Shown piece by piece: positions 13,967 to 47,027 of a DNA stretch of 64,000 nucleotides. How positions within the stretch are numbered: position 1 is the first letter of the stretch; each line of letters starts with the position of its first letter. The stretch comes from Branchiostoma lanceolatum (taxonomy: Eukaryota; Chordata; Leptocardii; Amphioxiformes; Branchiostomatidae), in NCBI RefSeq assembly GCF_035083965.1, contig NC_089722.1, positions 22,251,142-22,315,141 on the forward strand. Reading direction: 5' to 3'. The notes under the pieces were generated by a model, which saw nothing but the letters and a program-made list of their open reading frames with translations, had not been told where the DNA came from and ran no database searches. Both the position numbers and the translations under genes were made by a program.

Positions 13967-16900
13967 TCAAACCTACATTCTCCTGGTTTCTCCTACACTC
14001 CCCTGGTTTCTGCTATATTCTCCTGCTTTCAGATGCTATATTCTCCTGCTTTCTACTATATTTTCCTGGTTTCTCCTACATTCCTCTGCTTTCTCCTACA
14101 TTCTCCTGCTTTCGCCTACATTCTCCTGCCTTCTCCGATATTCTCCTGCTCTTTTCCTGCTTTCTCCTATATTCTCCTGCTTTCTGCCATATTCTCCTGC
14201 TTTCTGCTATATTCTCCTGTTTTCTGATATATTCTCCTGCTATCTACTACATTCTCCTGCTTACTCCTATATTCTCCTGGTTTCTCCTACATTCTCCTGC
14301 ATTCTCCTATATTCTCCTGCTTTCTCCTGGTTTCTCCTGCTTTCTCCTATATTCTCCTGCGTTCTCCCATATTCTCCTACATTCTCCTGGTTTCTCCTAC
14401 ATTCTCCTGCTTTCTGCTATATTCTCCTGCTTTCTGCTATATTCTCCTGCTTTCTGCTATATTCTCCTGCTTTCTGCTATATTCTCCTGCTTTCTCCTAC
14501 ATTCTCCTGCTTCCTGCTATATTCTCCTTCTTTCTGCTATATTCTCCTGCTTTCTGCTATATCCTCCTGCTTTCTGCTATATCCTCCTGCTTTCTCCTAC
14601 ATTCTCCTGCTTTCTCCTACATTCTCCTGCTTTCTCCTACTTTCTTCTGCTTTCTCCTATATTCTCCTGTGTTCTCCTAAATTCTCCTGCTTTCTCCTAC
14701 ATTCTCCTGCTTTCTCCTGCTTTCTCCTGCTTTCTCCGATATTCTCCTGCTTTCTATTATATTCTCCTGTGTTCTCCTATATTCTCCTGCTTTCTCCTAC
14801 ATTCTCCTGCTTTCTCCTATATTCTCCTGCTTTCTCCTACATTCTCCTGCTTTCTCCTTCATTCTCCTGCTTTCTGCTATATTCTCCTGCTTTCTCCTAC
14901 ATTCTCCTGCTTTCTCTTACATTCTCCTGCTTTCTCCTACATTCTCAGGCTTTCTCCTACATTCTCCTGCTTTCTGCTATATTCTCCTGCTTTCTCCTAC
15001 ATTCTCCTGCTTTCCGCTATATTCTCCTGCTTTCTCCTACGTTCTCCTGCTTTCTTCTACATTCTCCTGCTTACTCCTGTATTCTCCTGCTTTCTGCTAT
15101 ATTATCCTGCTTTCTCCTACATTCTCCTGCTTTCTGCTATATTCTCCTGGTTTCCCCTTCATTCTCCTGCTTTCTCTTACAATCTCCTGCTTTCTCCTAC
15201 ATTCTCCTGCTTTCTCCTACATTCTCCTGCTTTCTGCTATAGTCTCCTGGTTTCCCCTTCATTCTCCTGCTTTCTCCTACAATCTCCTGCTTTCTTCTAC
15301 ATTCTCCTGCTTTCTCCTACATTCTCCTGCTTTCTCCTACATTCTCCTGCTTTCTGCTGTATTCTCCTGCTTTCTCCTACATTCTCCTGCTTTCTGCTAT
15401 ATTCTCTTGGTTTCTCCTTCATTCTCCTGCTTTCTACTACATTCTCCTGCTTTCTCCTACATTCTCCTGCTTTCTCCTACATTCTCCTGCTTTCTCCTAT
15501 ATTCTCCTGCGTTCCCTATATTCTCCTGCTTTCTCCTACATTCTCCTGCTTTCTCCTACATTCTCCTGCTTTATGCTATATTCTCCTGGTTTCTCCTTCA
15601 TTCTCCTGCTTTCTCCTACAATCTCCTGCTTTCTCCTACATTCTCCTGCGTTCTCCTATATTCTCCTGCTTTCTCCTACATTCTCCTGCTTTCTGCTATA
15701 TTCTCCTGCTTTCTGCTGTATTCTCCTGCTTTCTCCTACATTCTCCTACTTTCTCCTACATTCTCCTGCTTTCTCCTACATTCTCCTGCTTTCTCCTATA
15801 TTCTCCTGCGTTCTCCTATATTTTCCTGCTTTCTCCTACATTCTCCTGCTTTCTGCTATATTCTCCTGCTTTCTGCTATATTCTCCTGGTTTCTCCTTTA
15901 TTCTCCGGCTTTCTCCTACATTCTCCTGCTTTCTCCTGGATTCTCCTGCTTTCTCCTACATTCTCCTGCTTTCTCCTATATTCTCCTGCGTTCTCCTATA
16001 TTCTCCTGCTTTCTCCTACATTCTCCTGCTTTCTGCTATATTCTCCTGGTTTCTTCTTTATTCTCCTGCTTTCTCCTACATTCTCCTGCTTTCTCCTATA
16101 TTCTCCTGCTTTCTCCTACATTCTCCTGCTTTCCGCTATATTCTCCTGCTTTCTCCTACGTTCTCCTGCTTTCTTCTACATTCTCCTGCTTACTCCTGTA
16201 TTCTCCTGCTTTCTGCTATATTATCCTGCTTTCTCCTACATTCTCCTGCTTTCTGCTATATTCTCCTGGTTTCCCCTTCATTCTCCTGCTTTCTCTTACA
16301 ATCTCCTGCTTTCTCCTACATTCTCCTGCTTTCTCCTACATTCTCCTGCTTTCTGCTATAGTCTCCTGGTTTCCCCTTCATTCTCCTTCATTCTCCTACT
16401 ATCTCCTGCTTTCTTCTACATTCTCCTGCTTTCTCCTACATTCTCCTGCTTTCTCCTACATTCTCCTGCTTTCTGCTGTATTCTCCTGCTTTCTCCTACA
16501 TTCTCCTGCTTTCTACTACATTCTCCTGCTTTCTCCTACATTCTCCTGCTTTCTCCTACATTCTCCTGCTTTCTCCTATATTCTCCTGCGTTCCCTATAT
16601 TCTCCTGCTTTCTCCTACATTCTCCTGCTTTCTCCTACATTCTCCTGCTTTATGCTATATTCTCCTGGTTTCTCCTTCATTCTCCTGCTTTCTCCTACAA
16701 TCTCCTGCTTTCTCCTACATTCTCCTGCGTTCTCCTACATTCTCCTGCGTTCTCCTATATTCTCCTGCTTTCTGCTATATTCTCCTGCTTTCTCCTACAT
16801 TCTCCTGCTTTCTGCTATATTCTCCTGGTTTCCCCTTCATTCTCCTGCTTTCTCCTACATTCTCCTACTTTCTCCTACATTCTCCTGCTTTCTCCTACAT

Positions 16901-18050
16901 TCTCCTGCTTTCTCCTATATTCTCCTGCGTTCTCCTATATTTTCCTGCTTTCTCCTACATTCTCCTGCTTTCTGCTATATTCTCCTGCTTTCTGCTTTAT
17001 TCTCCTGCTTTATCCTACATTCTCCTGCTTTCTCCTACATTCTCCTGCTTTCTGCTGTATTCTCCTGGTTTCTCCTTCATTCTCCTGCTTTCTCCTACAA
17101 TCTCCTGCTTTCTTCTACATTCTCCTGCTTTCTCTACATTCTCCTGCTTTCTCCTACATTCTCCTGCTTTCCACTCTATTTTCCTGCTTTCTCCTACATT
17201 CTCCTGCTTTCTGCTATATTCTCCTGGTTTCTCCTTCATTCTCCGGCTTTCTCCTACATTCTCCTGCTTTCTCCTAGATTCTCCTGCTTTCTCCTACATT
17301 CTCCTGCTTTCTCCTATATTCTCCTGCGTTCTCCTATATTCTCCTGCTTTCTCCTACATTCTCCTGCTTTCTGCTATATTCTCCTGCTTTCTGCTGTATT
17401 CTCCTGCTTTCTCCTACATTCTCCTGGTTTCTGCTATATTCTCCTGCTTTTTGCTTTATTCTCCTGCTTTCTCCTACATTCTCCTGCTTTCTCCTACATT
17501 CTCCTGCTTTCTGCTATATTCTCCTGGTTTCTCCTTCATTCTCCTGCTTTCTCCTACAATCTCTTGCTTTCTCCTATATTCTCCTGTGTTCTCATATATT
17601 CTCCTGCTTTCTCCTACATTCTCCTGCTTTCTGCTATATTCTCCTGGTTTCTCCTTCATTCTCCTGCTTTCTCTTACATTCTCCTGCTTTCTCCTACAAT
17701 CTCTTGCTTTCTCCTATATTCTCCTGCGTTCTCCTATATTCTCCTGCTTTCTCCTACATTCTCCTGCTTTCTGCTATATTCTCCTGCTTTCTGCTTTATT
17801 CTCCTGCTTTCTCCTACATTCTCCTGCTTTCTCCTACATTCTCCTGCTTTCTGCTATATTCTCCTGGTTTCTCCTTCATTCTCCTGCTTTCTCCTACAAT
17901 CTCTTGCTTTCTCCTATATTCTCCTGTGTTCTCATATATTCTCCTGCTTTCTCCTACATTCTCCTGCTTTCTGCTATATTCTCCTGGTTTCTCCTTCATT
18001 CTCCTGCTTTCTCCTATATTCTCCTGTGCTCTCCTCTATTGTCCTATATC
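13967..18050. repeat. 20-bp minisatellite array 3 (pyrimidine strand on +)
   Basis: About 4.1 kb of the same 20-bp unit lies here in opposite orientation, reading TCCTGCTTTCTCCTATATTC on the + strand. Larger blocks are duplicated within it. The irregular run starting TTTCCGCTAT at 15011 recurs at about 16130, with the unusual TACTCCTGT, ATTATCC and GTTTCCCC units in the same order. The block at about 17450-17690 recurs at about 17790-18010. A shortened GCGTTCCCTATATT unit occurs at about 15510 and 16589. Open frames of 907, 262 and 219 codons arise only because the unit contains no stop in any register. The right edge is about 140 bp before the conserved leader of NAT copy 1. Confidence 0.97.
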
Positions 18051-18304: not shown

Positions 18305-21300
18305 ATGGACGTCAGGCAGTACCTGTCACGTAAAGGTTACCATGGCGACACCAGCCCCACCCTGGATAACCTTCGCGCCATCCACCAGGCACACATGCTG
18401 ACAGTTCCTTTCGAGAACCTCAGGTACAAACGAGGAACAGCATGTCTTTCAGATTGAATCGTGCCTGGTCTGCATAATGAGCTGTAAATACTAAAAACTT
18501 CCAAGACCCCATACCTTTGCCAATGATGTTGAACCTTTAGTGAACTGACGTATTGTAAAGGTTTCTCTTTGATTATGCAAATAAGGTCCTCATTTGCATA
18601 AATTATATCAGTTGTAATCTAGGAGGTTAAATCTGTTTTTACCCTCCTTGCTTCTTCGGAATGAGGCCCTGATTTGCTTGATTTGTGTTTAATAATGTTC
18701 ACCTTCCAAATGCCATAAGTATGCCACTAGCCTGTGTTTACAAAATCAGGCTCTCGCTGGCTGGGGTTGATGTCGGCATTTGGGCGGAGCTCAAATTGGT
18801 TAATTATATGCGTGAACCCTGACCCGCGAGTCACGTGATTCCGTCAGTCTAGTTCGTCGATAGAACGTTTTGAGCTCTACAGGAAAGAATCGCTGATTCC
18901 TCTGTTCATTGAGTGAGAGTGCAGATAATTGACCCCCTTTTAGAGGACGGTTACCGTCGGGCCGGTCTCTAGGAGCGCGATTTAGTTTGCTCCAACACTC
19001 ACACACACACACGCACGCACACACGAAAAACAAACCTTCATGGCAAAGGTAATAAAAAGTAAGCGAGTCAAACTCAAAGCGTAACGCCTTTTGAGAGCTA
19101 CTAGTAGTGCTAGTGCAATGCACCCCGCCGAGGTTCGCGTTCAGCGAAGCACACCGAGTCGCCCCTACTGTTCTCAATAAGTATGTCTATTTTTTCGGGC
19201 AGAGGTTTGACACCTGGGGCTAGCCCTTGGAACTCCTATTGTCTCAAATGTTCTATCGTTTCTACTTCTAAGTTATACTGACCCCATGTTACAAATGTTA
19301 AAAGATTTGTTGTCTTCTCTATATTTTTACAGCATCCACTGTGGAGAAGAGATTATACTTGATCTTCAGCTTCTCTACAACAAGATCGTGCTGAAGGGAC
19401 GAGGCGGGTTCTGTTATGAGAATAACGGTCTGTTTTCATGGCTACTCGGTCAGCTCGGTTTCAACCTCAAAACCGTGTCAGCGCAGGTGATGAACAACAC
19501 AGGGGAATTCACGCCAGAGATGGCACACCTTATCAACGTGGTGAGCATAGATGGAGACCGCTGGGTTGCGGATGTGGGGTACGGTTGTGCCTTCCGTACA
19601 CCCATCCGTCTGGCACCGGACCATGAGCACCCTGACGTCACCGGTACATACAGGTAACGATACTGGTGTTAGTGGTGTAGCTTAACTTAGCTTCAGGCTA
19701 ACTAGTGTACCTAACCTGTAGTAACTGTGCCACTTCTTCATGAGCACAAGAACTATCTAACATTTGAAGATCATAGAATAAAGGATGATAAACTTTTAAA
19801 GATCATAGTATGTCCAGAGCACAAGATATGAAAAGCAGAGGCTCTGATGCAGTACCACAATGAGACACCAGGTGGTCCATAATCGAAATTCAACGGTCCT
19901 TTTTTGGCCGACACCTATCAACATTTTTTTTTTTTTCAAATGATTTTAATTTCAACATGGTACATAATTTCGCCAGGATACATAATTCCACCAGGGTAAA
20001 TAATTCCGTCCGGGTACATAGTTCGATCAGGGTACATATTTCCACCTGGGTACATAGCATCGGGTACATAATTCCATCGGGGCACATAATTCCGTCAGGA
20101 TACATAATTCCATCAGGGAAGCTTAACATTGTATAGTGAACACAAATGCAGAAAAGGTAGGAACACATCATCCCTCATTAGTTGTCTAGGATTATCTTTA
20201 CATTTTAACCAGGAGACATAGATCGAGTACTTTGCTATTGTTAATAAGCTAGCGCAGCATTCTTTGGATCCTAACAAGACTTCATCCTGAGTAATGCTAA
20301 TTCTACACCAGAAGTTTCTTAATCTACTGCATTGTAAAAACATATGTTCATAATTTTCGATCTTTTCACATATATCACAGGTAGGGCTGTAAATGTTACC
20401 AGACAAATCTCTTACTTTCCATTTGTTGAGCAGGTACTTACAAGGTAGTATTCCATGTAATAATTTAAAGTTAAATTCTCGCAACTTATTATGTTTGATC
20501 GTACAAGTCTGGCATTTCCATATCGCTCTCCAGTCCAGATTAGGGATTGTAAAATCCCAATATGCCTGGGAGGTAGGTGTTACAGGGTTATGAAATACAG
20601 AATTTGAATACAAGTATCTGCTAGTAAAAGTGTCAGCTATTTTACGCTGCCCATTAAACCAGAGTGAGTTGCTTTCAAGGAATTGGCTTCCATTATCTTC
20701 TTCAGTAAGCCATCTCCGCCCTGTTGCCAATTTAACACAGGTGAACTCACAAAGCCAGTTATTCCTGATGGTGAGTCTCTCGAGCAACGACACAGGCGTT
20801 ATATAGTCTGAAGCACAGCATATATCTCTTACAAATATAATACCACTATCTATCCAGTGTCTATAGTAGAGTGTTTTGTTGTTCAACATAAAATTTTCGT
20901 TACACCAAATTATTTCGTTACGTACATGGGCAAAATCTGTCTTTCCTCCTCCCAAATCATGCCAAGACAATACTACATCCCTGTAGAAAGGGGGAAGGGT
21001 TAACAGAGAAGGTGCATCTGCTTTTCGTTTGAAATTAAGTCGAAAGACCAGAAAGTCTTTGCCAAGCTTGTCAATAAAGTGTAAAGGTATTTGTCGCCAT
21101 CTACAAATTCTGCTGGGATCCTTTGGAGTTTTAATTATCCTTCGGACCCAAGCAGCTTGTAGACTCTTGCATTTTGTATTTATATCCAGCATCTTTAACC
21201 CTCCATCCTTGTACTCTGAATACAATGTTTTTCTCTTTATCTTGTCCGGTTTTCCATTCCACAGGAAACGGAAACAGGTCCTTTCAATTCTTTTTAATAC

Positions 21301-24300
21301 CCATGGAGGGGTGGATATAGAAGACATCTTATAAACGATCTGAGATATTCCTAAAGACTTAATAATCAATATTTTGCCATATAAGGTAAGTCTCCTTCTC
21401 TGCCATACCCGAAATAAGTTTTCCATTTTTTCAAGGGATTCTTCCCAGTTCAGAGATTCACAATTTTTCTCTTCACGACTGTAGTATAGACCTAGAGATT
21501 TAATGGGTGTTTCTGGCCAATTTATTCCACATGGCTTATCAATTCTACAAGAATAAGAACCTATCCATGTGGCTTCACATTTTCCAACATTCAGTTTTAG
21601 CCCAGCCACAAGACAGAAGTCCTTTACGGTCTTTAACGCAATTCTGATGGCTTCTTCATTAGCGAGGAACAGAGTAGTGTCGTCGGCCACCTGGCTAATC
21701 TTAATCTCTTCACTCTCTACTTTAATGCCTTTAATTGTATCTGTTTGCCGAATCTTAGCTGCAAGGGTTTCAACAACAAGATTAAATAACATGGCAGATA
21801 AGGGACATCCCTGTCTGATTCCTCGTTGTAATTTGAAATAAGCGGATTTCCATCCTGCATTGATGATGCAACTTTCGATGTCAGTGTACATAGTTTTAAC
21901 TAATGAAATGAAAGTAGGTCCAAAACCAAACTTATCTAAAGTCCTTAGCATGAAGTTCCAGCTCACCGAGTCGAAAGCTTTCTCAAAATCGAGCCAGACG
22001 ACTGCAGCCGGTAAATTATAATAGTTACAGTAATAAATAACATCTTGTAGTAATCTAACGTTTTGTCCAATAAACCTGGTCTTAATGTAGGCGGTTTGGT
22101 CTTCTGAAATCAGTTTTGGGAGAAAACTCTGCAGTCGTTTTGATAATACCATAGCTAATATTTTATAATCAGTGTTTAGCAAACTTATTGGCCTCCAATT
22201 AGATAAGTCGGTCTTGTCACCCTTTTTGTAAATGAGTTTCAATAGGGCCCTCTTTTGGGTCACAGAAAGACATTTATTATCTATCGCTTCTGTCAAGGAT
22301 TCGAAGACCAAGTCCCCTATTTCACTCCAGAATTTTAGATAAAATTCAGCCGGTAGCCCATCAGTACCTGGCGTTTTATTTTGGTTCAAAGATTTCAAAG
22401 CTAAAAAACATTCATTTTTTGTTATAGGTTCATCTAACAGGATCCTTTCGTCATCCGAAAGCGAGGGCACATCAACTGACCCGAGAAAAGTGTTGATTTG
22501 TTCGTCAGATGCAGAATTATCACTATCGCAACAATACAGTTTCTTATAAAAGTTAACTTCCAAGTCTAGAATTTTAAAGGGATTTGTTTCTTCACCTGTT
22601 GCATGTTTTAATTTAGTAATTGTATTATGTTTCGAACGGGAGTTTTCGAGACTCAAAAAGTATTTGTTAGATTTTTCTCCCTTCTCCACCCATTCGGCCC
22701 TGGCTCTAACTTGAGCCCCTTTTGCTTTATATTCGTATATTTTCTCTAGCTTTGATTTAATTTCTGTATATTCATTCAAAGTTTCATCGTTCAGTGTCTC
22801 ATCTAAATCTAATTGGCACTCTAGCTCTTGGAGTCTCATTTCAAGTTCTTTGTGTTCTGTGTTGATATTACTTGCTTTAATCCTGGAGTATTTATCCGGA
22901 GAACTCTTTAATCTTTATTTTGCACATCTCCCAAGCTAGTTGTTTTGATTGACAGTAATCACTAAGTTCTTCAGTAACAGAACGTACTGTAGATTTCACA
23001 CCTGTGGCATAATTCTCATCCATCAGGTGCGAGGTGTTCAGGCGCCAAGACCCAGGCCCTCTAGAGCAGTCAGTTATTTGCACCTTCAAAAATATAGCAA
23101 GATGATCTGTTCTGATAGATGTTCTGATATCACAACTTATAATGTTGGTTGATAGCGACTTGTTGATAAGCCAGAAATCAATTCTACTGGATACTGGGTC
23201 TGGGTTTTTTCGCCTCCAGGTGAATTGCCGCACCTGTGGGTGGCGTTCCCTCCAAATATCTACAAGTGCTAGACTTTTCTTGAAACTATTTAATGCCTTC
23301 GTATTTTCACCTGAGCTCCGCGCCAGGGGGTGCTTGCTTATCCTATCAATGGCAGTGTCGTTTACCATATTAAAGTCACCGCCAGCAATCAGATTATCAA
23401 CATTATTGTCGTTAATCCAATTCCGTAAGACACCTATCAACATACCAGATGTAATAAATATATATCCATAGCTTCTCGAGTTATGGTGTCCGAAAACAAA
23501 CAAATTAAATATATCCAACCGCAAACACACACAGCCACCACCCTCGTAAACCATGACCGCCTATCGCTCGACGTTACATCGCGAGCGTAAGCGGCCCTGG
23601 TGAAAAGACCCTACACATATGGTTATGACGACGTCACCTGCTTCCCCTCATCGGAAGCAGCGCGCAAAGAACGCTGGGAAGCTATCAACCAATCAGGTTA
23701 CGTGTTACATTGTTGCTTTGGTTACCCAAAACAAATGGCAGCCGATAGTTTTGCTCATTAATTATTCATGAGCAAGTGTCGGCGAGGTCCCAGAACCATA
23801 TGCGTAGGGTCTTTTTACCAGGGCCGCTTACGCTCGCGATGTAACGTCGAGCGATAGGCGGTCTTGGTTTACGAGGGTGTCAGCCACAAACGGAACCGAA
23901 AACATAACCTTCTTGGCGAATGTGAAAAGGTTTAAATGTATTGCAAAATGTCGCGCGCTCGACAAAAACATTTGATTTGACCAGTAGATAAAACTTTCCC
24001 TTCCACGTAAACTACATGAATGTACTTTGTTTTCGTCCCTAAGGCTTAAACAAGAGGGCGATACGTGGTTCCTTCAAAGAAAGAGCAAAGCCAAGCTGGA
24101 TGTCGACAACTACGAAGCGACTCCTGACGGAATTCATAAGGACGACATTAAGAGAGGTACTTAGAACTTGCTGGTTTTGAGTTGCGCTCGGCCATCAGCA
24201 AAGTAAGAATTAGTGCTCACCCCCTAGAAGTAGAGAGAGGACGACATAAGAAGAATTTGTAAATAATGTACGTCCAAAGCGGTGGAAGACGAAGCACATT

Positions 24301-25053
24301 TTATTTCCAGTTGTCCAGTTAACCATGACGAAAGAGCCGAATTGTTTAAATCATTTGTAGCTCTTGGGAAAATGACAGCGAAGAGACTGGTATTCGACCG
24401 GTTTCGACTTTATTGTCTTTTTCAAGAATCGAATTGTTTAAAGTTACCACGAAATACCCCTACTTTTACACATTCTCGCATAGACGAAAAGCTTCTTTTC
24501 TCTTGAAATCACAGAACCCACAAATTCTAGAAAAATTGGGACTTTTCGTCCTCCGTTGCTTAAAAAAAAAAGAAGTCAAACCCAGCTTGTCTAGATATAG
24601 CCAACAGTCGCATTTAGTATTAGTAGCCTATTGTTACAACAAAGTCAGTCACAGTTCACTGACACAACACTGTATGTTTTTGTTTTTCCCCTATGTTTCT
24701 ACCATGTACTTGCAATTAATGAAATTGCAACAAAACTTCTTATTAATGTAGAATCTGGCGAGTGGGTAGTGCTGTACAAGTTCACTTTGCAAGAACACAA
24801 GCTGCAAGACTTCTCCGAGATGTGCTCCTGGGCACAGCGGGAGAGTCCTTTCTTCACCGGACGACCATTTTGCGTGCTCCACTTGGCGGATGGTCTCATC
24901 ACCTACATGGGAAGGAAGCTCATAACAACACGATACTACGAAACCCACCTTACCAAGACAACCACAGTTCTGGATAGTGATGATGCTATTCTGGCGATTC
25001 TATGGGACATGTTCAGAATCAAACTGGAAAACCATCTTATGGTAAAAGAGTGA
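18305..25053 (+). CDS. Arylamine N-acetyltransferase, copy 1 (transposon-laden)
   Basis: This gene transfers acetyl from acetyl-CoA to arylamines and hydrazines in the cytosol. Exons: 18305-18423, 19333-19653, 24044-24156 and 24752-25053. The frame closes as 284 aa, normal for NAT. The active-site cysteine lies in GRGGFCYENN (Cys67), with His105 before NVVSID and Asp120 in VADVGYG, giving the full Cys-His-Asp triad. Intron 2 contains an antisense LINE and a MITE. The third exon is interrupted by a LINE fragment; read through, a TAG follows within a few codons, but donor GAG|gtactt at 24157 and acceptor aatgtag at 24751 would remove it in frame. The 24157-24751 intron is inferred and the other splice sites follow copies 2 and 3. 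If that intron is not used, the gene is broken. Confidence 0.85.
18617..18651. repeat. AAGGAGGTT-type inverted repeat in NAT1 intron 1
   Basis: CTAGGAGGTTAAA and TTTTTACCCTCCTTG form an imperfect inverted repeat of the family seen at 11191 and 13921. Confidence 0.5.
18999..19024. repeat. CA-type microsatellite
   Basis: A short run of CACACACA and CGCACGCACACAC lies in NAT1 intron 1. Confidence 0.8.
19955..20120 (-). repeat. 18-bp tandem repeat in LINE 3' UTR
   Basis: About nine imperfect copies of TACATAATTCCATCAGGG (as read on +) lie between the poly(T) tract and the end of the reverse-transcriptase frame. Confidence 0.85.
20113..23428 (-). pseudogene. LINE endonuclease/reverse transcriptase ORF2 remnant
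   Basis: The 5' part (23428 down to 22892) encodes the C-terminal half of an apurinic endonuclease with the GGDFN motif. The main frame (22839 down to 20113) encodes a reverse transcriptase: KTPGTDGLPAEF, NWRPISLLN, DFEKAFDSVSW, RQGCPLSAMLFNL and a catalytic VADDTT (usually FADD). A C-terminal CDICEKIENYEHMFLQC segment follows, a cysteine/histidine motif typical of L1-like ORF2. The two frames are joined across a single-base frameshift near 22900-22905. The frameshift and the missing N-terminus mean this copy is not autonomous. Any open frame to the right of 23428 is NAT intron sequence and not part of the element. Confidence 0.92.
23539..23879. mobile_element. 341-bp MITE with 84-bp terminal inverted repeats
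   Basis: The left arm 23539-23622 begins CACCCTCGTAAACC. The right arm ends GGTTTACGAGGGTG at 23879 and matches the left with about three mismatches. Flanks are ACAGCCAC (23531-23538) and TCAGCCAC (23880-23887), an 8-bp target duplication with one difference. NAT copy 2 shows the empty site CTCAACCACAAACGG. An 8-bp duplication fits hAT or P-type transposases. There is no coding capacity. Confidence 0.92.
24152..24746 (+). mobile_element. LINE 3' fragment inserted in NAT1 coding exon
   Basis: Relative to copy 2 (GACGACCTTAATGTAAAATCT) this copy has about 595 bp inserted after GACGACATTAA, with ATTAA repeated at the right end (24742-24746). The insert encodes a peptide with EDEAHFISSCPVNHDERAELF (from 24285), a form common at the C-terminus of CR1/L2-like LINE proteins, so it is probably a 5'-truncated element in sense orientation. 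The predicted donor lies at its left end and the acceptor in the flanking NAT sequence. Confidence 0.8.
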
Positions 25054-26217: not shown

Positions 26218-28046
26218 ATGGACGTCAGGCAGTACCTGTCACGGATAGGTTACCATGGTGACACCAGCCCAACCCTGGATAACCTTCGCGCCATCCACCA
26301 GGCACACATGCTGACAGTTCCTTTCGAGAACCTCAGGTACAACAGTCTTAGTCAAACCAATGGGGTCAAACGAGGAACCACGTGGTCAAATTCAGGCTTA
26401 GAAACTCCCATGTCCAGCCGGATTCGGACCTTGTTCTACGATGTTCGATCTGACGTAATTAGATCCGAACGCGTGTTCCATTTGGGATCACCTGCGGTCA
26501 TTGCAAGTTTCTACTGTAAACCCAGTCGAACCATCGTTGTCGTGCCCTTTTTTTCCGCATCAAGAGAAAAACTACGTTTTCACACATTTTCACGATTTTC
26601 TGCAGAGAACATCTATTCTGGCACTCTTCTATGGACATTTAAAACATGCAACGAAGCTACTAGCGTCATTGTTGGTGACCTTGGGGATTGTTTTCGCCCA
26701 GAGTCAATTACCCCTCCCCTTATCCATGCACATGTGGCATGACATGCGTTCAAGACATTCTATCGTTGGTTTCTGTTACTAAATAACACTGACCTTATGT
26801 TCCCAAATGTTAAAAGATTTGTTTTCTTTTTGATATCTTCCGTACAGCATCCACTGTGGAGAAGAGATTATACTGGATCTTCAGCTTTTCTACAACAAGA
26901 TTGTTGTGAAGGGACGAGGAGGGTGCTGTTATGAGAATAACGGTCTGCTCTCATGGCTACTTGGTCAGATCGGTTTCAACCTGAAAACTGTGAAAGCGCA
27001 GGTGAACAACACAGGAGCCCATCCTATCAACGTGGTGAGCATAGACGGAGAGCGCTGGGTTGCGGATGTGGGGTTCGGTTGTGTGTTCCGTACACCCATC
27101 CGTTTGGCAGCGGGCCAAGAGCACCTTGACGTCACCGGGACATACAGGTAACGATATTGGCCTAGTTTTATAATAGCTTTAAAGTTAGCCGATGTGCCTT
27201 ACCTGAAGTAACTGTACCACTTCTTCATGAGCCCAAGAGCTATCTACCATTTAAAGATCATTGGATTCTAGAGCACAAGATAGGAAAAGCGGAGGCTCTG
27301 CTGAGAGCCACCAGGTCATTCATAATCCTTTGTTTTGCCGACACCTATCCACATGCCAGATATCATAAATATCTATCAATGGCCTATGGTGTCCGAAAAC
27401 AACCAAATATATCCAACCGCAAACGCACTCAACCACAAACGGAACCGAAAACATAACCTTCTTGACGAATGTGAAAAGTCTTGATTACATTACAAAATGT
27501 CACGCGTTTGTTGTTCAGAGAATCTCTGAAGAATATGGAATCAACAAAAGCATTCCATTTGACAGGTAGATACAACTTTCCCTTTCACGTTAACTACATG
27601 AATGTACTTTGTTTTCGTCCTTAAGGCTTCAACAAGAGGGGGAAACGTGGATCCTTGAACGAAAGAGCAAAACCCGGCTGGATCCGGATGCCAACAACTT
27701 CGGAGCGACTCCTGGCGGAATTCAGATGGACGACCTTAATGTAAAATCTGGCGAGTGGATAGTGCTGTACAAGTTCACTTTGCAAGAACACAAATTGGAA
27801 GACTTCTCCGAGATGTGCTCCTATACACAGCGGGTTAGTCCTTTCTTCACTGGCCGACCATTTTGCATACTCCACCTAGCGGATGGCCTCATCACCTACA
27901 TGGGAAGGAAACTCATCACAACGCGATACTACGAAACCCACCTTACCAAGACAACCAAGGTTCTGGATAGGGACGATGCAATTTTGTCGATTCTATGGGA
28001 CACGTTCAGAATCAAACTGGAAAACCATCTTACAGTAAAAGAGTGA
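26218..28046 (+). CDS. Arylamine N-acetyltransferase, copy 2 (intact)
   Basis: This is an acetyl-CoA:arylamine N-acetyltransferase with three coding exons, 26218-26336, 26848-27147 and 27626-28046, giving 279 aa. All junctions are GT-AG and keep frame (phase 2 at both introns). The triad is present: Cys67 in GRGGCCYENN, His98 before PINVVSID, and Asp113 in VADVGFG. The C-terminal part includes TYMGRKLITTRYYETHLTKT. It is the reference copy for this cluster: its introns lack the insertions in copy 1 and its frame lacks the breaks in copy 3. An open frame from 26218 runs through into intron 1 and should not be taken as the protein. AATAAA at 28439 may serve for polyadenylation. Confidence 0.93.
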
Positions 28047-29197: not shown

Positions 29198-31189
29198 ATG
29201 GACGTCAGACAGTACCTGTCACGGATAGGTTACCATGGCGACACCAGCCCCACTCTGGAAAACCTTGGCGCTATCCACCAGGCACACATGCTGGCCGTTC
29301 CTTTCGAGAACCTCAGGTACAACAATTTGTTTATTTGTTGTTTTTTTTAGTTCATCACAACGTGGATTATAGTCAAACGAGAAATAATTAGAGACGCATT
29401 TACCTGTTCCAACATATCTTCTAGACCAAAACATGCCTGGTCGGCAAAATGTAGAAAGAGATACTAAAAACTACATTTTTTTCGGCTCCATCCCTTTGCC
29501 AGAATTATGATGTTTACCTTTACAACTGACGGAGGGGCCGGACCAAAGTGCAACAGGGGCCGCGCCTCGCGTTTTCAGCCAGTAAAGCACATCGATAAGT
29601 CAGTCATGTTCTTCTCCGTGCAGACGTTTCACACTTGAAGATAGCCCTGAAACTCGTGCCGGTGGAGGTCGCCGGCTTGACGTCCACATCCGAAAGGGCG
29701 AATGCAAACATGCAAACCATTAATTTTACAAAATGGTCTCAAACGTTCATATCGGAAACATGCCCTACATCTCACTGTACCCGCGGCACGTTGGTGACCT
29801 TTGCTCCGACCGAGCGATCTGACAAAGCGCACAATGAATTTCATCGATAAAAAAAAAAACAATCGTCTTACTCTTTGTGTATTTCGTTGTCTTTTTAGTC
29901 ATAATTGTACGTTTTGGATGATATCCCCATTATAGACTCAAGGGTAACACAAATCAAGTTTAGGTAGAAGCGACGCTGCCAAAGTGCCGTAGGTCCAGTG
30001 AGATAGGGCTTCAGTTACACTGAACTCATTTTCGAAATGTTGAAATATATGTTTTCTCGACATTCCTCCGTACAGTATCCACTGTGGAGAAGAGATTATA
30101 CTCTACAACAAGATCGTACTGAAGGGACGAGGAGGGTTCTGTTATGAGAATAACGGTCTGTTCTCGTGGCTACTTGGTCAGCTCGGCTTCAACCTGAAAA
30201 TCGTGAAAGGGCAGGTGGGTGACACAGGGGCCCATATGGTCAACGTGGTGAGCATAGACCTCTGAGCATAGACGGAGAGCGCTGGGTTGCGGATGTGGGG
30301 TTCGGTTGTGTGTTCCGTACACCCATCCGTTTGGCAGCGGGCCAAGAGCACCTTGACGTCACCGGGACATACAGGTAACGATATTGGCCTAGTTTTATAA
30401 TAGTTCTTAAGTTAGCCGATGTGCCTAACTTGTAGTAACTGTACCACTTCTTCATGAGCACAAGAGCTATCTACCATTAAACGATCATAGGATGCCCAGA
30501 GCACAAGATATGGAAAGTGGGCGCCCTGCTACAGTTCCACAGACAGCAACCAGGTGGTCCATAATCGATTGTGTCCTTCGTTTTCCGACAGATACCCAGT
30601 ACCCAGATACCAATTATCATTAAGATCCATCCACAGCCTCTTGAGTTATGGCGTCCAAATCAACCCAATCACAACAAGATTGGCAACATAAAAAGACGTT
30701 GCCAAACATTCGATTTGACCAATCGATACAACTTTCCCTTTCACGTTAACTACATGAGTGTACTTTGTTTTCGTCCTTAAGGCTTCAACAAGAGGGGGAA
30801 ACGTGGATCCTTGAACGAAAGAGCAAAACCCGGCTGGATTCCGCCGTTTTCGAAGCGACTTCTGGCGGAACTCAGAAGGACGACATAGGCTCTGGCGAGT
30901 GGGTAGTGCAGTACAAGTTCACTTTGCAAGAACACCAACTGCAAGACTTCTCCGAGGTGTGCTCCTGGGCACAGCGGGAGAGTCCTTTCTTCACGGACGG
31001 CCATGGTGCGTGCGCCACCTAGCGGATGGTCTCATCACCTACATGGGAAGGAAGCTCATCACAACGCGATACTATGAAACCCACCTTACCAAGACAACCA
31101 CAATTCTGGATGGTGATGACGCCATTTTGGCGATTCTATGGGACACGTTCAGAATCAAACTGGAAAACCATCTAACAGTTAAAGGGTGA
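29198..31189 (+). pseudogene. Arylamine N-acetyltransferase, copy 3 (broken)
   Basis: The three-exon layout of copy 2 is kept (29198-29316, 30076-30374, 30782-31189) with the same splice signals. Exon 2 has lost 15 bp (in frame) after EEII and has gained 14 bp at about 30260-30274, where GAGCATAGAC is repeated. This shifts the frame into a stop just before the catalytic Asp region. Exon 3 has also lost one base near 30994 in the FFTG segment. The catalytic Cys and His codons remain. Promoter and splice sites look intact, so it may still be transcribed. If either lesion is an assembly error the other still breaks the frame. Confidence 0.88.

Positions 31190-43544: not shown

Positions 43545-47027
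<3,483 letters not shown>

Follow-up and report, generated by a model that had tools for sequence, protein, structure and literature searches.

A retrotransposon-like insertion in a coding exon of an amphioxus N-acetyltransferase gene as a candidate gained intron

Did a piece of mobile DNA that entered a coding exon become an intron, or did it destroy the gene? This question is raised by a 64,000-nucleotide stretch of Branchiostoma lanceolatum DNA (assembly GCF_035083965.1, contig NC_089722.1, positions 22,251,142 to 22,315,141), hereafter the window, whose own numbering is used throughout. The last coding exon of an arylamine N-acetyltransferase (NAT) gene, copy 1 of a tandem array, is interrupted there by foreign sequence. 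In this study, we found that an intron was probably gained when a retrotransposon fragment was inserted into NAT copy 1, and that this intron would be spliced between 24156 and 24752. The splicing is inferred from frame preservation and constraint. The origins of animal introns have mostly been argued from old events whose evidence has been erased. In the 13-kb NAT array the parts can still be read: the inserted fragment and its flanking repeat, candidate sites for splicing, and the same exon unoccupied in two sister copies. If the splicing is real, the locus would be one of the few places where the possible making of an intron can be followed in the sequence.

A tblastn search of the window identified three tandem NAT genes on the plus strand. 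Their exon boundaries were set by reading frame and homology and are as follows.

18305-18423, plus strand: NAT copy 1 coding exon 1, with donor CAG/GTACAA (tblastn, reading frame)
19333-19653, plus strand: NAT copy 1 coding exon 2, containing RGGFCYENN, MAHLINVV, and VADVGYG (tblastn, reading frame; Pfam and human NAT1 alignment, both via copy 2)
24044-24156, plus strand: NAT copy 1 coding exon 3a, whose final 5 bases, GAGAG, derive from the insert
24752-25053, plus strand: NAT copy 1 coding exon 3b, ending at the stop codon (tblastn, reading frame)
26218-28046, plus strand: NAT copy 2, intact, with an empty site (exons 26218-26336, 26848-27147, 27626-28046)
29198-31189, plus strand: NAT copy 3, a frameshifted pseudogene with an empty site (exons 29198-29316, 30076-30374, 30782-31189)

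The three motifs in exon 2 of copy 1 presumably surround the expected Cys-His-Asp triad. Pfam Acetyltransf_2 was found above its cut-off in all three NAT pieces tested (two from copy 2 and one from copy 1), and the copy-2 protein matched human NAT1 with an E-value of 2.3e-27. Once 24157-24751 was removed, no frameshift or stop was found over the 284 codons of copy 1. The spliced copy 1 protein would have 284 residues and the copy 2 protein has 279, both in intact frames. Copy 3 is a pseudogene and carries a 15-bp deletion, a frameshifting 14-bp insertion that repeats adjoining sequence, and a 1-bp deletion.

The insertion site in copy 1 is made up of three parts.

24147-24151, plus strand: left flanking repeat ATTAA (sequence)
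24152-24741, plus strand: insert of 590 bp in the same sense as NAT, with a decayed C-terminal retrotransposon-like frame
24742-24746, plus strand: right flanking repeat ATTAA (sequence)

At this site copy 1 reads GACGACATTAA, then the 590 bp, then ATTAATGTAGAATCTGG. The uninterrupted sequence is GACGACCTTAATGTAAAATCTGG in copy 2 and GACGACATAGGCTCTGG in copy 3. The insert was confined to copy 1, and the same site was empty in both other copies of the window (2/2), where the exon continues without it from 27736 in copy 2 and from 30879 in copy 3. The two ATTAA copies lie 595 bp apart and have the form of a target-site duplication, though at only 5 bp they may also be microhomology. The site falls in a length-variable stretch of the NAT family just ahead of VVLYKFTL. 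The alignment of human NAT1 with the copy-2 protein spans it with short gaps only, just before VLYKFTL.

The splicing model uses the following signals.

24157-24751, plus strand: proposed intron of 595 bp, phase 1, GT-AG (frame, scores, shuffles)
24157-24162, plus strand: proposed donor GAG/GTACTT, GT at 24157-24158, 5 bases into the insert (sequence, score)
24203-24208, plus strand: rival donor AAA/GTAAGA, with a higher weight-matrix score; with it NAT would end at the stop at 24162-24164
24655-24751, plus strand: acceptor region, with CTGAC at 24659-24663, a pyrimidine-rich stretch at 24670-24704, and 95 nt free of AG

Joining 24156 to 24752 gives DDIKRESGEW and keeps the frame to the TGA at 25051-25053, for a total of 855 nt and a length equal to that of the empty site. 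The empty site reads DDINVESGEW, and the spliced form changes N to K and V to R. When the insert is retained, the protein reads DDIKRGT and ends at the TAG at 24162-24164. The AG of the proposed acceptor, AATGTAG, is at 24750-24751, in the old exon and 5 nt beyond the right ATTAA. By eye, copy 3 has an AG at an equal distance ahead of TCTGG, adjoining a 6-nt gap, and copy 2 has AA. Since copy 3 has AG at this position, the acceptor AG may predate the insertion. GC content was 37.8% in the proposed intron versus 46.9% and 47.7% in the flanking exons. The preliminary description of this DNA had reported an uninterrupted exon in copy 2, a copy 1 insert between ATTAA repeats, a donor at 24157 lying 5 bp within that insert, an acceptor drawn from the old exon, and a product of unchanged length with two altered residues and the normal stop. 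All of this was recovered here, with every coordinate correct, and copy 3 was found to be empty as well. Its description of the gain as clean holds for frame and length and is doubtful for the splice signals, as the scores below show.

Splice sites were scored with weight matrices entered by hand. The donor at 24157 scored 0.84, equal to the gene's own exon-1 donor CAG/GTACAA in all three copies, and both are without G at +5. U1 pairing energy also favored 24157 over 24203 (-5.7 versus -4.5). CTGAC and the pyrimidine-rich stretch lie in a 95-nt AG-free run, and the AG that ends this run is the proposed acceptor. A comparable run was found in 1 of 4000 shuffles and in 42 of 3441 window segments, the draws left from 4000 after the exclusions given below. 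Several scores weigh against the proposed splicing. Three of the four other positive donors in 24044-24751 exceeded 0.84, namely 24203 (4.02), 24268 (2.13), and 24644 (1.24). The acceptor scored 1.25, whereas the remaining six acceptors in the NAT array scored 2.29 to 8.23, and it was the lowest of eight positive-scoring acceptors in 24157-24800. The other seven scored 1.51 to 4.64, and their exons would begin at 24228, 24311, 24319, 24361, 24427, 24484, and 24515. Both proposed sites are weak, since 8.2% of 7506 GT and 6.2% of 8407 AG on both strands of the window score as high. None of the rival donors or acceptors formed a pair that kept the frame free of stops and the product to within 10 residues of its former length.

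We investigated how often such a pair arises by chance. A GT-AG pair was counted when it kept the frame, met no stop, and changed the protein by no more than 10 residues, the segment being placed at the same site. Random 590-bp window segments were drawn from outside the insert region and the two minisatellite regions, and some of them may overlap. Four pairs of this kind were present in the real sequence, and 24157/24752 alone had two positive scores. In-frame pairs of any strength were common, occurring in 3511 of 4000 dinucleotide shuffles and 3425 of 4000 window segments. A pair at least as good on both scores was found in 22 of the 4000 shuffles and 16 of the 4000 segments, and one at least as good by summed score in 91 and 77, respectively. 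A smaller run of 400 shuffles gave two matching both scores and five by sum. Because the pair 24157/24752 was chosen on the same sequence, we take it as a coincidence of roughly 1%, which is not proof.

Selection on the NAT exons was examined next to these signals by the ratio of replacement to synonymous substitution rates (dN/dS), with gapped codons excluded and stop codons left out of pairwise counts. Downstream of the insert, dN/dS was 0.21 between copies 1 and 2 (98 codons), 0.23 between copies 1 and 3 (97 codons), and 0.38 between copies 2 and 3. On these sequence comparisons, exon 3b looks to be under constraint in copy 1, with dN/dS of about 0.2. Singletons were scored as unrooted differences among the three copies, in which changes before and after the insertion are inseparable, and the counts assume no gene conversion among copies. 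Downstream synonymous to replacement singletons were 6:3 in copy 1, 7:11 in copy 2, and 5:9 in the pseudogene copy 3. The 6/9 synonymous changes in copy 1 exceed the expectation from site shares (P 0.005). Other counts detract from this result. The 6:3 ratio did not differ significantly from copies 2 and 3 (Fisher P 0.15 to 0.24). Upstream singletons in copy 1 were 13:21, with no special constraint (copy 2, 4:8; copy 3, 9:17), and exon 3a (24044-24151) had dN/dS above 1 in all pairs (1.60, 1.24, and 2.65 over 33-35 codons). Exons 1 and 2, unlike this first part of the last coding exon, had dN/dS of 0.26 to 0.31. The downstream exon is unlikely to have been neutral beyond about 37% of the copy-1 branch, as 7.9 replacements would be expected and P(<=3) was 0.046. 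Had the exon been unconstrained ever since the insertion, that event would have to lie in roughly the final third of this branch.

The content of the insert was then compared with sequence elsewhere in the window.

24152-24253, plus strand: retrotransposon-like frame, piece 1, ERYLELAGFELRSAISKVRISAHPLEVERGRHKK (translation)
24255-24350, plus strand: piece 2, in the next frame after a frameshift and with one stop, ICK-stop-CTSKAVEDEAHFISSCPVNHDERAELFK (translation; relative at 44634-44753)
24332-24442, plus strand: putative nested insertion, 19-bp repeats at 24332-24350 and 24424-24442 flanking 73 bp
24443-24589, plus strand: resumed frame, VTTKYPYFYTFSHRRKASFLLKSQNPQILEKLGLFVLRCLKKKEVKPSL, open through to the right end of the insert (translation)
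44634-44753, minus strand: relative of the insert frame, unbroken across the point of the nested insertion (protein-level comparison)

The nested 19-bp repeats are identical at 17 of 19 positions, and the interruption amounts to 92 bp. When the query was joined from both sides of this interruption, the insert frame matched 44753-44634 on the minus strand with 20 of 40 identities and an E-value of 4e-7 (composition correction off). The match scored 39.3 bits, versus at most 25.4 in 100 shuffled queries. Scored singly against the relative, the two sides gave 32.7 and 19.2 bits, and the second side alone was not significant. The 92-bp piece is not present in the relative. Most simply read, these results suggest that the insert is part of a truncated retrotransposon into which a smaller piece was inserted, whether in NAT or earlier. 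We take the frame to resemble the C-terminal Cys/His region of non-long-terminal-repeat (non-LTR) retrotransposons, and retrotransposon features are confined to this C-terminal stretch. A DNA search of the window found no second copy of the insert; its best match, at the 44.6-kb relative, was 66% identical over 68 bp. In Pfam, neither of two versions of the retrotransposon peptide matched a family above cut-off; below cut-off were a zinc finger (E 0.0018 and 0.00078) and zf-CCHC_2 (E 0.26). Two viral-contig scans for relatives of the insert gave 18 and 44 pattern matches, none of which was confirmed, and exact matches of the nested 73-bp piece to the rest of the window did not exceed 14 bp. 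The fragment of a long interspersed nuclear element (LINE) named in the preliminary description is supported as a LINE-like C-terminal frame with a relative in the window; the class itself is tentative, with no Pfam retrotransposon match.

The right end of the insert does not favor a complete element. With the nested piece excluded, the frame is open from the ICK-stop-C stop to the right end, and no A-rich or simple tail was seen there. Because of the open frame and the tail-less end, this position may not be the element's true 3' end. The lesions and the nested piece could also predate the insertion into NAT. The decayed insert points to a longer stay in the gene, unless its lesions were inherited from the source. 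Intron gain as proposed in the preliminary description is favored, and its being newly made is doubtful in view of the frameshift, the stop, and the nested insertion.

Other features of the insert were also recorded. A run of ten A at 24562-24571, 170 bp ahead of the right end, could mark an internal boundary. A DNA transposon of the TTAA type (piggyBac, Kolobok) or with a 5-bp target (ProtoRAG), families judged by their usual appearance, was rejected, as none of 15 inverted-repeat pairs in 24140-24775 joins the insert ends. The nested piece at 24351-24423 contains CGACCGGTTTCGAC, which may resemble Penelope-like element ends or a hammerhead ribozyme. Such an origin was rejected, since Rfam gave no match at E<=1 over 19-33 kb, and the insert alone gave two chance-level matches.

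The following order of events would account for the copy 1 locus. A retrotransposon fragment, at least 5'-truncated, probably entered the final coding exon of copy 1, where the ATTAA on either side would be a target-site duplication from target-primed reverse transcription. The insert would have supplied the donor GAG/GTACTT 5 bases from its left end, together with a pyrimidine-rich, AG-free stretch. The next AG lay in the old exon, and AATGTAG/AAT would have been recruited as the acceptor. Splicing out 24157-24751 would leave GAGAG of the insert, drop ATTAATGTAG, and keep the length of NAT unchanged, with N-V replaced by K-R. Because NAT presumably remained usable, the downstream exon may have been kept under selection while the insert decayed and gained a second insertion.

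Other histories must be weighed against this one. The insertion may have killed or truncated copy 1, with the GT-AG pair being coincidental. Copy 1 would then be a pseudogene or would encode a protein ending in DDIKRGT without the last 100 residues, for example via the donor at 24203 or an inner acceptor. The weakness of the proposed sites beside several stronger rivals is in keeping with such a loss; loss of a NAT gene has a precedent in this array in copy 3, and the intact copy 2 could render copy 1 dispensable. However, 284 codons free of frameshift and stop, downstream dN/dS of about 0.2, decay of the insert itself, and a chance of such a pair of about 0.5% on both scores or about 2% by sum make this history unlikely, though not negligible. 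A closer competitor, which we regard as possible but not the expected answer, keeps the same intron and has the fragment pasted in while a broken chromosome was being repaired, in which case ATTAA would be microhomology or the result of end filling. Copies that are 5'-truncated and have short flanking repeats are also produced by target-primed insertion. Repair nevertheless has to be considered because the frame is open to a tail-less right end, so that both ends may be arbitrary, and the repeat is only 5 bp. Intron gain of this kind has been recorded in Drosophila in the available text of PMC3296678.

The insertion may also be recent, perhaps polymorphic, in which case the exon constraint would be mostly pre-insertion and the lesions and the nested element would already have been in the source. 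Identical outer repeats agree with this, weakly as they are only 5 bp, and the selection data leave room for an absence of constraint over as much as roughly one third of the branch. The nested 19-bp repeats differ at 2 of 19 positions, however, and if they are a target repeat, the nested event was not recent, although it may have taken place elsewhere; the relative at 44634-44753 is without the nested piece. We consider a recent insertion rather improbable. Least credible, and highly improbable in our view, is an ancestral intron lost by copies 2 and 3. As the comparison has three copies and lacks an outgroup locus, a single loss in the ancestor of copies 2 and 3 costs the same as a single gain. 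But copy 2 reads through TTAATGTA, which is the 3' end of the intron in the spliced model, so only a deletion between the ATTAA pair fits, and the sequence resembles a retrotransposon fragment. Human NAT coding exons are not known to contain introns, and human NAT1 aligns across the site as described above. cDNA-mediated loss of an old intron was rejected because copy 2 retains TTAATGTA.

Intron gain by retrotransposon insertion at NAT copy 1 would not be a new kind of event. A retrotransposon insertion making a spliceosomal intron is already known from Drosophila sechellia, where, in the available text of PMC3296678, the third intron of GM26034 was gained by insertion of the retrotransposon Doc1053. 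The Doc1053 insertion is flanked by target repeats (PMC3296678), as is proposed for NAT. The match to Doc1053 is 98.4% over 99%, and that intron stops 15 nt short of its right repeat. The proposed NAT acceptor instead belongs to the old exon and follows the right repeat by 5 nt, and the NAT fragment is decayed with a nested insertion. The same text names earlier transposon-made introns in maize, rice, and the chordate Oikopleura. Introners, in the portion of PMC9860276 available, are likewise transposon insertions into exons, in which one splice site comes with the insert and the other is recruited from the target; in Chrysochromulina the introner brings the 5' site and the 3' site is recruited, as proposed for NAT. 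They differ in forming families of at least four similar introns that are mostly consistent with DNA transposons (PMC9860276), while the NAT case is a single retrotransposon-like instance in the window.

In amphioxus, 'mirage' duplications of globin are described as intron gain (available text of PMC3087553), and a PRHOXNB intron holds the miniature inverted-repeat transposable element (MITE) LanceletTn-2 (named in the available part of PMC5802833). Two of the three chordate gains (Oikopleura, globin, PRHOXNB) involve a transposable element, as proposed for NAT. They differ from it in being a tandem duplication (globin), a MITE (PRHOXNB), or, for Oikopleura, of an element type not stated in the text available. 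Known repetitive elements were undetectable in non-standard fish serpin introns (available text of PMC2746811). A retrotransposon-made chordate intron was not found in the open-licence literature searched, much of it available in part, which is not proof of absence. The fuller claim for NAT is a chordate coding-exon intron made from a retrotransposon, in which the element would give the donor and the target exon the acceptor, the empty sister copies are one intact and one dead, and the intron decayed and took a second transposon with the enzyme intact. We put it forward tentatively, at slightly less than even confidence, because the Oikopleura transposon gains are named without their element type in the available text and the right end of the insert may not be that of the element.

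Other repeats lie near the NAT array. Intron 2 of copy 1 holds a long retrotransposon (20113-23560, minus strand) with a 933-residue open frame matching RVT_1 (E 3.9e-36). Its zf-RVT match was below cut-off, and an upstream frame had weak endonuclease matches below the Pfam cut-offs. This element and the exon insert look like different elements. Between it and exon 3 of copy 1 sits a MITE-like inverted repeat (23539-23627 and 23791-23879), whose 89-bp arms are 96% complementary and 163 bp apart. Large minisatellite-like tandem arrays occupy 382-1974 and 14026-17715; they are mutually inverted, and the second has steps of 10 and 20 bp.

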